From: an uncultured Burkholderiales bacterium
GTDB lineage: Bacteria > Pseudomonadota > Gammaproteobacteria > Burkholderiales > Burkholderiaceae_C
Direction: 5' to 3'
Assembly (NCBI GenBank): GCA_903952885.1
Contig: CAJBHE010000178.1
Location: 1-33,455 of the forward strand
Length of the DNA: 33,455 nucleotides
A program made the translations under genes and the position numbers. Below, one piece after another: positions 3,061 to 8,997 of this stretch. The notes under the pieces are model-generated. The model was not told the DNA's origin. It worked only from the letters and a program-made list of their open reading frames with translations, and did no database searches. Position 1 is the stretch's first letter, and each line of letters opens with the position of its first letter.

Positions 3061-3786
3061 ATGAATCCCATCAGCATCAAAGTCGCCTGTTCTAACTGCA
3101 ATTTGCGTGAGCTCTGCATGCCACTAGGTTTAAGCGAGAGCGAGATGGAGCGTGTAGATGATGTGGTGGCGACGCGACGCAAAGTGGCGCGTGGCGACAA
3201 CTTGTTTAGAAACGGCGACAAGTTCAATGCGCTGTATGCCATCCGAACAGGCTTTTTCAAAACACGCATCTCTGCTGAAGACGGTCGAGACCAAGTGACG
3301 GGATTTCAAATGGCGGGTGAAATCATTGGCTTGGACGGTATTGTCAGCGACCACCACACCTGTGATGCCGTGGCGCTAGAAGATGCAGAAGTTTGTGTGA
3401 TGCCGTTTGATCGAATCGAAGAACTCTCACGCGAAATCACCTCGTTGCAACGTCATGTGCACAAGATCATGAGCCGCGAAATTGTGCGTGAAAACGGTGT
3501 GATGTTGTTGCTAGGTAGTATGCGCGCCGAAGAACGCTTAGCAGCCTTCTTGCTAAATTTGGTGCAACGCTTGCACGCAAGGGGCTTTTCGCAGACAGAG
3601 CTGGTGTTGCGCATGACGCGCGAAGAGATTGGCAGTTATTTGGGTCTCAAACTCGAGACCGTCAGCCGCACGTTTTCAAAGTTTGTGGATGACGGTTTGG
3701 TAGAAGTCAAGCAACGCTATGTCCGAATTTTGAATCCTGAGGGACTCAAGCAGATCATGAATTCACAAAACTGCCAAACCAATTAA
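3061..3786 (+). CDS. fnr: FNR-family oxygen-sensing transcription regulator
   Basis: A 241-residue CRP/FNR regulator. Cysteines 10, 13 and 19 (Cx2Cx5C) plus Cys101 match the four ligands of the oxygen-labile [4Fe-4S] cluster of E. coli FNR (C20, C23, C29, C122). A cyclic-nucleotide-like beta-barrel follows, then a helix-turn-helix whose recognition helix reads ETVSR. The E..SR pattern is what reads TTGAT half-sites, and such sites occur three times nearby. It should switch on the cbb3, hemN and usp genes when oxygen falls. The ATG at 3061 is well placed. Its TAA abuts the stop codon of the convergent 79-residue gene with no spacing. Confidence 0.95.
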   Translation: MNPISIKVACSNCNLRELCMPLGLSESEMERVDDVVATRRKVARGDNLFRNGDKFNALYAIRTGFFKTRISAEDGRDQVTGFQMAGEIIGLDGIVSDHHTCDAVALEDAEVCVMPFDRIEELSREITSLQRHVHKIMSREIVRENGVMLLLGSMRAEERLAAFLLNLVQRLHARGFSQTELVLRMTREEIGSYLGLKLETVSRTFSKFVDDGLVEVKQRYVRILNPEGLKQIMNSQNCQTN

Positions 3787-4026
3787 TTAAACAGCAGCTG
3801 CCTCGAAGGGCGACAGCGACAGCAATGTTGTCAATGCACTTGATGCCGAAGTGATGGTCCAAAACACAAAGAAGGACAATGTGTAAACGCCCTGCCGCGA
3901 CATTTCAATGGGATGACCAAACCATTGAAGATCTTGCGGATCGACAAAGGCAAACACGAACATTTCTAGTACACCCGCCACCAAAAAGGCGGGCCATACG
4001 ATCCACATCATTCGTTGAGCCAACAT
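3787..4026 (-). CDS. Small uncharacterised membrane protein ending the cbb3 operon
   Basis: A 79-residue protein with two likely membrane helices (about residues 6-28 and 46-68), joined by a short loop with charged and aromatic residues (DPQDLQWFGHPIEMSR). I do not recognise a named family. A clear AGGAG lies 8 bases before the ATG, so it is probably a real gene. It lies 56 bases downstream of fixH on the same strand and is likely the last cistron of the cbb3 cluster. Its stop codon touches that of fnr. Context suggests a role in oxidase assembly, stability or membrane sensing, but nothing in the sequence proves one. Confidence 0.75.
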   Translation of the reverse strand: MLAQRMMWIVWPAFLVAGVLEMFVFAFVDPQDLQWFGHPIEMSRQGVYTLSFFVFWTITSASSALTTLLSLSPFEAAAV

Positions 4027-4082
4027 TTGAATTCTCCTGAAAAGGAATTTGCTTCAGTTTAAGCGCTGATGATGTCGTGCAC

Positions 4083-4373
4083 TCATGGGGTTTTCGTGAG
4101 GGACTCGGCCTTGGCTGAATCGGGCTTTGGCGTGACCACATGATTACGCGACTGCATGGCAGGTGCGAGCTGAAGGTCTTTTTCAGCGGCCAGGGTTTTG
4201 TTGATCTCCAAGCCACGTTTGTAATAATCGTCCGCAATCACAGGGTCAGGCCTACCAATGGCAATACCCAAGGTAATAAAGCCAGCCACGATGACTGCAG
4301 AAGGCCCGGCGATGATGAGCCAGACGTGGCCATATCGCCACCAAGGTTTGGTATCGGTTGTTTGTTGTTTCAT
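4083..4373 (-). CDS. ccoH: FixH/CcoH-like cbb3 oxidase assembly protein, short form
   Basis: A 96-residue protein with one membrane anchor (about residues 16-39) followed by the FixH signature DDYYKRGLEINKTLA near residue 48. FixH/CcoH binds assembling cbb3 oxidase and is needed for its stability or copper insertion. The protein ends soon after the signature in a Pro/Lys-rich tail (VVTPKPDSAKAESLTKTP). The periplasmic beta-domain of longer family members is absent. Downstream bases in other frames do not continue it, so this is not an obvious frameshift. It starts 6 bases after ccoG. The family call rests on the signature and the operon position. Confidence 0.82.
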   Translation of the reverse strand: MKQQTTDTKPWWRYGHVWLIIAGPSAVIVAGFITLGIAIGRPDPVIADDYYKRGLEINKTLAAEKDLQLAPAMQSRNHVVTPKPDSAKAESLTKTP

Positions 4374-4379
4374 GATGAA

Positions 4380-5828
4380 TTACCTAGGAACGATGAACAC
4401 AGATTTTTCGATCACAAACTCGTTACTGCCCTGCGCCTGAATTTCAAACATGATTTTGTGGGACCCACTCTCAACAGAGCCATAGGGAATATCAGCACGC
4501 AGAACAATCCAGCGGGCTTGAGCAGGGTCAACCATCACTTCAGTGTCAGTGATGATTTTCAGGTTCGGTAAGCCTTTCACGGACAAACGATAGGTCTGCG
4601 CATTTTCAGCCGCGTTCATGATCTGTAAACGATAAACGTTTTCTAATGTGCCGTCCTCGGTGATGCGCGAGAGTGTGGAGCGGTCACGCACAACATCCAC
4701 CTTGAACGGCGTGCGTAAACTGAGTGAGACCAACAAACCCACTGTCACCGCGACCAAAATCATGGTGTAAATCTGGATGCGAGGACGCATCAAACGTTGC
4801 CGCATTTGATTCGACGTCCATTGGTTGTCAATCGCGTTTTGCGTGGTGTAACGCACCAAGCCACGGGCATATCCGAGCTTGTCCATTACGGTGTCGCAAA
4901 CATCAGCACAAGCACCGCAGCCAATACATTCATACTGCAATCCATCGCGAATATCGATTCCTGTTGGGCAAACCTGCACGCACAAGCTGCAATCAACGCA
5001 AGCGCCTAAGTTCAACAAGCTTGCATCGGCACTTTTGGCGCGTGGTCCTCGGGGCTCGCCACGCGCTGCGTCATAAGTCACGATGAGTGTGTCGTTGTCA
5101 AACATGGCACTTTGAAAGCGCGCGTACGGGCACATGTATTTACAAACTTGTTCGCGCATGAAGCCTGCGTTGCCATAAGTGGCAAAGGCGTAGAAGAAAA
5201 CCCAGAAAACTTCCCATGAACTCATTTGAGTCAGGAAGAACTCCGTCGCCAATTCATGAATCGGCGTGAAGTAGCCTACAAAAGTAAAGCCCGTCCAGAT
5301 CGATAAAAAGATCCAGATGATGTGCTTGTAACATTTTTTGACCAGTTTCTCCATCGAGAAATTGGCGTCATCCAAGCGCATACGGGCTGAACGGTCACCT
5401 TCGACCTTACGTTCAATCCATAAGAATATTTCACTGTACACAGTTTGTGGACAGGCATAGCCACACCACAAGCGACCGGCCACGGCGGTGAACAAAAACA
5501 GCGCCAAGGCTGAGATCACCAGCAGTCCTGTGAGATAAATGAAGTCTTGTGGGTACAAGACCAAACCAAAAATATAAAAGCGGCGTGATGCCAAATCAAA
5601 CAACACCGCCTGGCGTGTGCCCCATTCAAACCAAGGCAAGCCGTAAAAAACCAATTGCGTCAGGACAACCAAAATCCAACGCCAATAGGCAAAGACGCCC
5701 TCGACAGAGCGAGGGTAGATTTTTTGAGATGCAGCATAAAGCGAAACCATCGCCTCGTCCGCAGAGCCCGAGGGCTCTGGAACGATGGGGATGGTTTTGC
5801 GCTGCTTAGCGTCATCAGCAGAATTCAA
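4380..5828 (-). CDS. ccoG: cbb3 oxidase accessory ferredoxin-like protein CcoG
   Basis: A 482-residue membrane iron-sulfur protein (FixG/RdxA family). CcoG proteins are linked to copper reduction for cbb3 maturation. Visible motifs are WCGYACPQTVYSE after the first helices, CKYMCPY mid-protein, and two adjacent 4Fe-4S motifs, CVDCSLCVQVCP and CIGCGACADVCD. Several helices follow, then a C-terminal Ig-like domain with VYRLQIMNAAENAQ. The start codon is TTG at 5828. An AAGG Shine-Dalgarno overlaps the end of ccoP just upstream, which argues for translational coupling and for this non-ATG start. ATG at codon 27 would remove only a variable N-terminus and remains an alternative. Confidence 0.95.
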   Translation of the reverse strand: MNSADDAKQRKTIPIVPEPSGSADEAMVSLYAASQKIYPRSVEGVFAYWRWILVVLTQLVFYGLPWFEWGTRQAVLFDLASRRFYIFGLVLYPQDFIYLTGLLVISALALFLFTAVAGRLWCGYACPQTVYSEIFLWIERKVEGDRSARMRLDDANFSMEKLVKKCYKHIIWIFLSIWTGFTFVGYFTPIHELATEFFLTQMSSWEVFWVFFYAFATYGNAGFMREQVCKYMCPYARFQSAMFDNDTLIVTYDAARGEPRGPRAKSADASLLNLGACVDCSLCVQVCPTGIDIRDGLQYECIGCGACADVCDTVMDKLGYARGLVRYTTQNAIDNQWTSNQMRQRLMRPRIQIYTMILVAVTVGLLVSLSLRTPFKVDVVRDRSTLSRITEDGTLENVYRLQIMNAAENAQTYRLSVKGLPNLKIITDTEVMVDPAQARWIVLRADIPYGSVESGSHKIMFEIQAQGSNEFVIEKSVFIVPR

Positions 5829-5834
5829 AGTGTT

Positions 5835-6755
5835 TTACCTTGTGGCCGCGGGTTTGTTAGAGAAGCCCCAAACATAGGCCGTCAACACATGGATTTGCGA
5901 CGCTGTCAAACGGCCTTCTTGCGCTGGCATTTGATTGACTTTACCGTTGTTAATCATCGCCGTGATGGCTTCTTCGCCCCAGCCATGCAACCAGATTTTG
6001 TCGGTGAGGTTGGCTGAGCCCATGGCTTGCATGCCAGCACCATCAGGCCCGTGACAGGCAGCACACGCGCCAAACTTACCTTTACCCAAAGCAGCACGCA
6101 CGGAGTCGTGTGGACTACCCGACAGGCTCAACACATAGTGTGAGACATTGCGAATGTCGTCAGGCGCGCCCACGGCAGCTGCCATAGGTGGCATTTGACC
6201 GATACGGCCTTTTGTCAAAGTCTCTTTGATTTTTTCTGTAGTCCCACCATGCAACCAGTCCTTGTCGGTCAGGTTAGGAAAGCCCTTTGAGCCTCGTGCA
6301 TCAGAGCCGTGACATTGGGCGCAGTTGTTCATGAACAAACGCTCGCCTACCGCCATGGCTTTGGGGTCTTGAGACAGTTGCTCTGGGGTTTGTGCGTTGA
6401 AGGCGGCATACAAAGGCTCGAGGTCTTTGTTGGCCTTGGCCACTTCGGCCTCGTATTGACCTTCAGATGTCCAGCCCAACTTGCCAGCGAAGCTACCCAA
6501 GCCTGGGTAAGCAATGCCGTACACCACAGCAAACACCATGGTAATGATGAACAACCACAACCACCAACGTGGCAGCGGATTGTTCATTTCGCGCAGGTCT
6601 TCGTCCCACACGTGGCCGGTTGTGCCGTCGATTGGATCGTGTGCGCCCACTTTGACTTTTGCTGAAAACCAGAGCAACAGCGCACAATAAACGACGCCCA
6701 AAATAGAGATGCCGGCCACGAAGATCGACCAAAAATTACTTGTGAAATCACTCAT
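5835..6755 (-). CDS. ccoP: cbb3 cytochrome c oxidase diheme subunit III
   Basis: A 306-residue membrane-anchored diheme cytochrome c that passes electrons to CcoO and CcoN. It has two N-terminal hydrophobic segments (about residues 9-31 and 63-85) around the conserved DGTTGHVWDEDLREMNNPLPRWW stretch. Two periplasmic c-type heme domains follow: CAQCH at residues 145-149 with Met in QMPPM near 188, and CAACH at 231-235 with Met in QMPAQ near 275. Length and layout are standard. It lies 30 bases after ccoQ and 6 bases before ccoG. Confidence 0.97.
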   Translation of the reverse strand: MSDFTSNFWSIFVAGISILGVVYCALLLWFSAKVKVGAHDPIDGTTGHVWDEDLREMNNPLPRWWLWLFIITMVFAVVYGIAYPGLGSFAGKLGWTSEGQYEAEVAKANKDLEPLYAAFNAQTPEQLSQDPKAMAVGERLFMNNCAQCHGSDARGSKGFPNLTDKDWLHGGTTEKIKETLTKGRIGQMPPMAAAVGAPDDIRNVSHYVLSLSGSPHDSVRAALGKGKFGACAACHGPDGAGMQAMGSANLTDKIWLHGWGEEAITAMINNGKVNQMPAQEGRLTASQIHVLTAYVWGFSNKPAATR

Positions 6756-6935: not shown

Positions 6936-7559
6936 TTATTTGAGCGCGAGGCCAAGGGATTGAAGGAAAGCAATCACTGCTTCGATCTCAGTTTTACCTG
7001 TGACTTCCTCTGTCGCCTTAGCGATTTCTTCATCTGTGTAAGGCACCCCCACTGAGCGCAAGGCTTTCATGTGTGAAGGCAAGTCATCGGCATCAACCAA
7101 GTTTTTGGCCAACCATGGGTATTCGGGCATGTTGGACTCAGGCACAAGATCGCGAGGGTTGTTCAAGTGGACACGATGCCATTCGTCACTGTACTTGCCC
7201 CCCACGCGAGCCAAGTCTGGACCGGTTCGCTTGCTACCCCATTGGAAGGGGTGGTCATACACAGACTCGCCAGCCACAGAGTAGTGACCATAGCGCAAAG
7301 TTTCTGCACGGAACGGACGGATCATTTGTGAATGGCAGTTGTAGCACCCTTCGCGGATGTAAACATCGCGCCCCGCCAGTTGCAAGGCTGTCAAAGGCTT
7401 TACACCCGTCACAGGCTCGGTGGTAGATTTTTGGAAGAACAATGGGACGATCTCAACCAGTCCGCCGAAAGCAACGGCAATCAAGATCAACACAATCATC
7501 AAAAAGTTATTGGTCTCCACGCTCGCGTGGGAGAAGCCTTTGGAATTGTTATCAGACAT
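6936..7559 (-). CDS. ccoO: cbb3 cytochrome c oxidase monoheme subunit II
   Basis: A 207-residue membrane-anchored monoheme cytochrome c. An N-terminal helix (about residues 18-40) precedes the heme c site [18 protein letters not shown] near residue 70. The distal region [12 protein letters not shown] supplies the Met ligand. CcoO relays electrons from CcoP to the CcoN catalytic subunit. Length is typical of the family. It starts 10 bases after ccoN and ends 12 bases before ccoQ, on one transcript. Confidence 0.97.
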
Positions 7560-7569
7560 GTATTTCTCC

Positions 7570-8997
7570 TCAGGCGTGTGCAGGTGCTGGAATCATCACG
7601 GTCACGGTGTTACCGCTCGTGACAGTCTTGAGGACGTTCCACAACATGATGAGCATGCCGCTCAGATACAACAAGCCGCCGCCCACTCGAATCACGTAGA
7701 ACGGATAAGTGGCTTTGACTGACTCAACGAAGGTGTAAGTCAATGTGCCGTCGGCGTTGATGGCGCGCCACATCAAACCTTGCATCACACCGGCAATCCA
7801 CATGGCAGCGATGTACAACACGATACCGATAGTGGCTAACCAGAAGTGAACTTCGATCGCCTTGACGCTGAACATTTCCTTGCGGCCGAACAACTTAGGA
7901 ATCAAGAAATAGATCGAACCCATGGACACCAAGCCCACCCAGCCCAGAGCCCCGGAGTGCACGTGGCCGACGGTCCAGTCTGTGTAGTGGCTCAAGGCGT
8001 TCACAGTTTTGATGGCCATCATGGGGCCTTCAAACGTAGACATCCCATAGAAAGACAAGGAGACGATCAAGAACCGCAGGATTGGGTCGTCACGCAATTT
8101 GTGCCATGCGCCAGACAACGTCATGATGCCGTTGATCATGCCGCCCCAGCTTGGCGCTAACAAAATTAATGAGAAGACCATGCCCAAAGACTGCGTCCAA
8201 TCAGGCAACGCGGTGTAATGCAAGTGGTGAGGACCCGCCCACATGTAAGTGAAGATCAAAGCCCAAAAGTGAACGATCGACAAACGATAAGAGTAGACGG
8301 GGCGACCTGCTTGCTTTGGAATGAAGTAATACATCATGCCCAAGAAACCAGCGGTCAAGAAAAATCCCACCGCGTTGTGACCGTACCACCACTGCACCAT
8401 CGCATCTTGTGCGCCAGCGTAAGCAGAGTAAGACTTCGTCATGCCCGCAGGAACCGCAGCGCTGTTAACGATGTGCAATAAAGCCACAGCAATGATGAAC
8501 GCACCGTAGAACCAGTTGGCCACGTAGATGTGTTTGACCTTACGAATGCCAACTGTGCCGAAAAACACCACGGCGTAGGCGACCCACACCACAGCAATCA
8601 AAATATCAATCGGCCACTCGAGTTCAGCGTATTCCTTGCCCTGCGTGAAACCCAATGGCAAAGTGACTGCTGCAGCCAAGATCACCAGCTGCCAACCCCA
8701 AAAAGTGAAAGCGGCCAGCTTTGGCATGAACAAGGCTGTGTGGCAGGTGCGTTGCACCACGTAATAGCTGGTGGCAAACAAAGCGCAACCGCCGAAGGCA
8801 AAGATCACCGCATTTGTGTGTAGCGGGCGCAAGCGGCCATAAGTCAACCAAGGAATGCCAAAGTTAAGTTCAGGCCAAGCCAGTTGAGAGGCGATGATCA
8901 CACCCACCAACATGCCAACCACACCCCAAACTACCGCCATGATGGAAAACTGCCGTACAACGGTGTCGCTGTAAACGGCTTGTTCTGATGAGTTCAT
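7570..8997 (-). CDS. ccoN: cbb3 cytochrome c oxidase catalytic subunit I
   Basis: A 475-residue, about twelve-helix heme-copper oxidase subunit that reduces O2 to water with high affinity and pumps protons. The heme and copper histidines are visible: [11 protein letters not shown] near residue 60, [10 protein letters not shown] near 207, [15 protein letters not shown] near 258 (the CuB pair) and [17 protein letters not shown] near 340 (heme b and b3). An AAAGGTGA ribosome site lies just before the ATG. Its own FNR-type promoter sits immediately upstream at the end of ccoS, so oxidase subunits can be raised independently of ccoI-ccoS. Confidence 0.98.

Follow-up and report, generated by a model that had tools for sequence, protein, structure and literature searches.

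The question raised by this locus is what a small, unnamed membrane protein does at the end of a cluster of genes for a cbb3 oxidase. In the window, by which we mean the whole stretch of 33,455 nucleotides that was analysed, the minus strand carries ccoN (7570-8997; TIGR00780, 780 bits), ccoO (6936-7559), ccoP (5835-6755; its translation contains two CxxCH haem motifs), the cupric reductase gene ccoG (4380-5828; TIGR02745, 518 bits) and fixH/ccoH (4083-4373; Pfam PF05751, E 7.4e-10), the places of ccoO and ccoP in the gene order being conserved among relatives. Downstream of ccoG and fixH, and next after fixH, an open reading frame on the same strand (3787-4026) starts with an ATG at 4026, seven bases from the ribosome-binding site AGGAG (4034-4038), and encodes 79 residues. 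On its other side, tail to tail with it, lies the gene of an fnr-type regulator on the plus strand (3061-3786; NCBIfam PRK11161, E 3.4e-71), and because the two genes converge they are not in one transcript. The reading frame is a real gene: 34 of 61 relatives have a homologue whose frame is open, and codon comparison with the nearest relatives gives dN/dS values of 0.037 (L031) and 0.059 (L032), which indicates strong purifying selection on the frame. The first-pass annotation of this DNA, which had described a two-helix membrane protein with a good ribosome site and had proposed conservation of the frame as a check, is thus borne out on both counts, the helices by the hydrophobic segments and the model described below.

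The protein has two hydrophobic segments on either side of the loop DPQDLQWFGHPIEMSR, and a two-helix fold is predicted. In an AlphaFold2 model of a full-length relative (L033; mean pLDDT 88), helices span residues 2-27 and 44-69, the loop is short and structured, and the tail is of lower confidence. Transferred to the window, where the two proteins align one to one over that stretch, these limits place predicted transmembrane helix 1 at 3946-4023, the inter-helix loop (residues 28-43) at 3898-3945 and predicted transmembrane helix 2 at 3820-3897, all on the minus strand. Across 154 distinct family sequences, W11 in helix 1 and Y48 and W56 in helix 2 are invariant where aligned, and F14 and F25 in helix 1, D29 and P30 in the loop and F52 in helix 2 are conserved at 93-99%. 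The spacing of the conserved aromatic residues suggests that each set lies on one face of its helix. The mean net charge over 152 members is +1.1 at the N-terminus, -1.8 in the loop and +0.8 at the C-terminus, a pattern that predicts both ends to be cytoplasmic and the loop to be periplasmic.

Searches of curated collections leave the protein without a name. The window protein has no Pfam match at E up to 10 and no NCBIfam family match, a hit to PRK10718 (E 0.06) being dismissed as a chance membrane match, and 52 diverse relatives gave no consistent match to a Pfam or NCBIfam family, only chance ones. The PDB holds no relative (best sequence E 2.5, best fold E 6.3). Searches of the open literature, together with the few subscription papers covered, found nothing on a gene in either of its two positions, between ccoP and ccoG or behind fixH, and both annotated public records that were examined list its product as a hypothetical protein. 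Heme-copper oxidases are known to have small accessory proteins for their biogenesis; what is new is a two-helix family with no curated model, and the 79-residue protein belongs to such a widespread and unnamed family, for which we use the working name CcoG-associated two-helix protein. An origin in phage or mobile DNA is unsupported, as no phage match was found and the family occurs on three plasmid records, all of them large replicons of 0.5-2.5 Mb; in the two that are annotated the neighbours are ordinary respiratory genes. Very divergent reading frames with weak profile matches also lie between ccoP and ccoG at two loci (L173, 3165-3512; L128, 2993-3235), so that the counts below may understate the size of the family.

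Homologues were found in 91 of 220 genomes of the order Burkholderiales (about 41%) and 61 of 206 genomes of the class (about 30%), and a sample of 299 genomes of the phylum gave matches inside the class only. Within this range the gene is co-inherited with ccoG. In the class sample ccoG is present in 61 of 61 carriers and the homologue in 0 of 91 genomes lacking ccoG (Fisher p 2e-20, phylogeny ignored, as it is in all of these counts); among the relatives the homologue is found in 34 of the 46 that have ccoG and in none of the 15 that lack it; and in the order sample 89 of 91 carriers have a ccoG match, the exceptions being one genome in which none was detected (G114) and one with a fragment (G166). 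The two genes are also neighbours, lying side by side on the same strand in 56 of 61 class-sample carriers and within 1 kb of each other on the same strand for 71 of 91 homologues in the order. The first-pass annotation had asked whether homologues co-occur with ccoNOP and fixH; most do stand in cbb3 clusters and nearly all carriers have ccoN, but the tightest partner is ccoG, with which the gene moves and with which it persists where ccoN is missing. The association is one-sided. The two-helix gene is lacking in 54 of 115 class-sample genomes with ccoG and in second cbb3 clusters of carrier genomes, and in five same-genus genomes it has been cleanly lost while ccoG and fixH were kept; the gene is therefore not essential, and its product is an accessory rather than a core part. 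Many class genomes place a second cbb3 cluster, devoid of the two-helix gene, a few kb from a gene for Cox11/CtaG, which is usually linked with aa3 oxidases; one such cluster lies at 308671-317719 of G318:C1, with similar cases in G350, G353, G442, G445 and G455.

The position of the gene in the window, described earlier as that of the last cistron, is the betaproteobacterial one. The order ccoG, fixH, two-helix gene holds in betaproteobacteria and a few others, but elsewhere in the class, and in most class-sample genomes, the gene stands between ccoP and ccoG (ccoN-O-P, two-helix gene, ccoG, fixH). Neighbouring genes in this arrangement often overlap or are only a few bases apart, and for many members the distance to ccoP is between -14 and +14 bp. 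In Variovorax paradoxus, where the gene is annotated as encoding a hypothetical protein and shares 4 bp with fixH and 4 bp with hemN, the operon also contains ccoI, ccoS, ccoQ and ccoG. Rhodoferax-like genomes carry ccoG and the two-helix gene as a unit of two, with ccoN on another contig, and in G725 and G726 this detached pair provides the only copies found of either gene. A small gene resembling AhpD/carboxymuconolactone decarboxylases, identified by eye and not by a model, follows the detached unit in several of these genomes (L047, 482-826; also L035, L062 and L067). In three complete Xanthomonas-like genomes of one genus (G388, G543 and G663) no ccoN exceeds the family cut-off and the two-helix gene adjoins a shortened CcoG of about 350-400 residues; that of G388 (352 residues) retains the Fe-S cysteines and is missing the C-terminal domain. 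Xanthomonas sacchari has a comparable pair on a large plasmid, with no ccoNOP nearby; the first gene is annotated as encoding a hypothetical protein and the second a 4Fe-4S dicluster protein, and at this locus (L181, 4820-8382) the pair stands beside hemN and a gene for a group III truncated haemoglobin. The gene thus travels with ccoG, and this unit of two can be separated from the cbb3 oxidase genes.

The window copy differs from its relatives at its C-terminus. In most Comamonadaceae relatives the protein is 95-105 residues long and carries, after the motif SPFE, a cysteine tail of the form NRCPL...RPDGCPKQ.CC, and a length of 79 is atypical among them; DNA and family alignments show that the window protein instead ends in AAAV and a stop codon (3787-3801, minus strand). 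Aligned with L031 and L032, the window lacks about 60-70 bp directly 3' of SPFE, a few remnant bases aside, and the site of the deletion is at 3787-3804. The stretch missing relative to L033 is longer because the spacer between the gene and fnr is longer there. The deletion may be real, or possibly an assembly error, since the genome assembly is fragmented. Its consequence is that the reading frame now abuts the convergent fnr; the contact, which had been observed correctly and offered as a hint of function, is the product of a deletion between convergent genes, and a functional meaning for it is rejected. Six other relatives (L004, L010, L011, L014, L053 and L066) also lack the tail, so at least some lineages can dispense with it; outside the betaproteobacteria, a second cysteine in the tail is found in few members. 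A role for the cysteine-rich tail as an essential working part is rejected because the window copy and these relatives do without it, although the variable tail may touch copper where it is present.

Taken together, the genomic evidence suggests that the two-helix protein probably helps CcoG to supply copper to respiratory oxidases. Because the gene follows ccoG, even into genomes without ccoN, it is best read as encoding a helper of this cupric reductase in the supply of Cu(I) to heme-copper oxidases, and in that specific form we hold the proposal to be slightly favoured over the remaining readings combined. The protein would form a hairpin in the membrane, its two ends cytoplasmic and its conserved DP loop periplasmic, and its aromatic stripe, formed by the tryptophan and two phenylalanines of helix 1 and the Y48, F52 and W56 of helix 2, would pack against a partner protein, for which the membrane part of CcoG is the likeliest candidate. 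There it might stabilize CcoG or aid delivery of Cu(I), and so allow the CuB site of the oxidases to be loaded. A role in the maturation or stability of the oxidase had been suggested for this gene before; maturation remains the best guess, but the partner to which it points is ccoG and not ccoNOP or fixH. We regard as quite improbable the variant in which the protein is a membrane subunit for docking or electron input through which CcoG draws on the quinone pool or on some other donor in the membrane; if this held, CcoG would consist of two components across much of the Gammaproteobacteria.

The position of the gene directly after ccoP in most class-sample genomes, where it often overlaps or almost touches that gene, and the presence of ccoN in nearly all carriers would also be expected of a peripheral subunit that, like CcoM or CcoQ, lends structure or stability to the CcoNOP complex. 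Such a subunit is nevertheless unlikely, as the gene leaves ccoNOP together with ccoG in the Rhodoferax-like genomes, stands beside a CcoG-like gene in the three complete genomes without ccoN and on the Xanthomonas sacchari plasmid, and is missing from same-genus relatives that still have ccoG and fixH. Homologues widespread away from cbb3 genes had been named in the first-pass annotation as evidence that would count against a cbb3 role, and this is partly what is seen: a minority lie beside aa3 genes or alone, but nearly all of them are in genomes with ccoG. Neighbours of these displaced homologues were identified by eye from translations. Four divergent members (L125, L127, L131 and L132) are in or next to aa3 clusters, with ctaB, coxB or the cox11 cluster as neighbours, five are solitary (L126, L134, L137, L138 and L143), and two have either hemN or a UreH-like gene as neighbour (L151 and L153, hemN in the case of L153); L116 also stands beside hemN. 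At two of the aa3 loci the homologue ends the aa3 operon or sits just upstream of it (L125, 1317-1589; L127, 5642-5896), and these divergent members are possibly an aa3-specialised branch. The aa3-linked members and the hemN neighbours of L153 and L116 are what would be seen if the protein were a general factor in the biogenesis of both aa3 and cbb3 oxidases, acting in the insertion of copper, heme or subunits, with ccoG as one context among several. We consider this rather unlikely, given that the great majority of members adjoin ccoG, that the aa3-linked ones are few and that every genome in which these occur (G023, G033, G321 and G430) also has ccoG. Detached members beside fnr, hemN and the truncated haemoglobin gene would fit a shared low-oxygen regulon, and hence a protein unrelated to the oxidase, such as a sensor or stress protein, that shares with the cluster only control by FNR; yet the gene is absent from every class-sample genome that lacks ccoG and moves with ccoG where the cluster is split, which makes mere co-regulation very improbable.

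The reduction of copper in bacteria and its hand-over to the enzymes of oxygen respiration are only partly known, and a membrane protein family that is co-inherited with ccoG in a large share of the Gammaproteobacteria is a concrete candidate in copper supply. The comparison with known systems upholds the earlier view of the gene as a so far undescribed part of cbb3 clusters whose product resembles none of CcoQ, CcoS and CcoM; it is conserved, and FixH too is unlike its product. CcoM of Pseudomonas stutzeri is likewise a small membrane protein tied to cbb3; it is described as a cbb3 subunit with a single helix and 36 residues (PMC8267372; PMC10433244), whereas the two-helix protein is modelled with two helices, has mostly 75-105 residues and possesses its own invariant W, Y and W. 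CcoQ/FixQ and CcoS are small membrane proteins of the same clusters, but in Variovorax paradoxus they are encoded by separate genes in the operon that holds the two-helix gene, and none of the 52 members searched gave a Pfam or NCBIfam match to either. CcoQ is encoded between ccoO and ccoP and CcoS after ccoI, with a separate ccoS in relatives of the window, whereas the two-helix gene follows fixH or separates ccoP from ccoG. CcoH/FixH, a membrane assembly factor encoded next to the two-helix gene, is the product of a separate gene with the PF05751 domain, which neither the window protein (E up to 10) nor any of the 52 relatives (E up to 1) matches. The nearest genomic partner is CcoG (FixG/RdxA), to which the two-helix protein has no sequence relation; it carries no Fe-S motif and stands outside the enzyme as described. 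A review lists the physiological electron donor of the cupric reductase CcoG as unknown (PMC7558416), and CcoG is also found in bacteria without cbb3 (PMC7558416; PMC13038864); in Bordetella pertussis, whose ccoN is a pseudogene, loss of ccoG still impairs growth at low aeration (PMC13038864). It is with this enzyme that the two-helix gene is adjacent and co-inherited across the class, including where ccoNOP lies elsewhere or is absent, as would be expected of a CcoG accessory.
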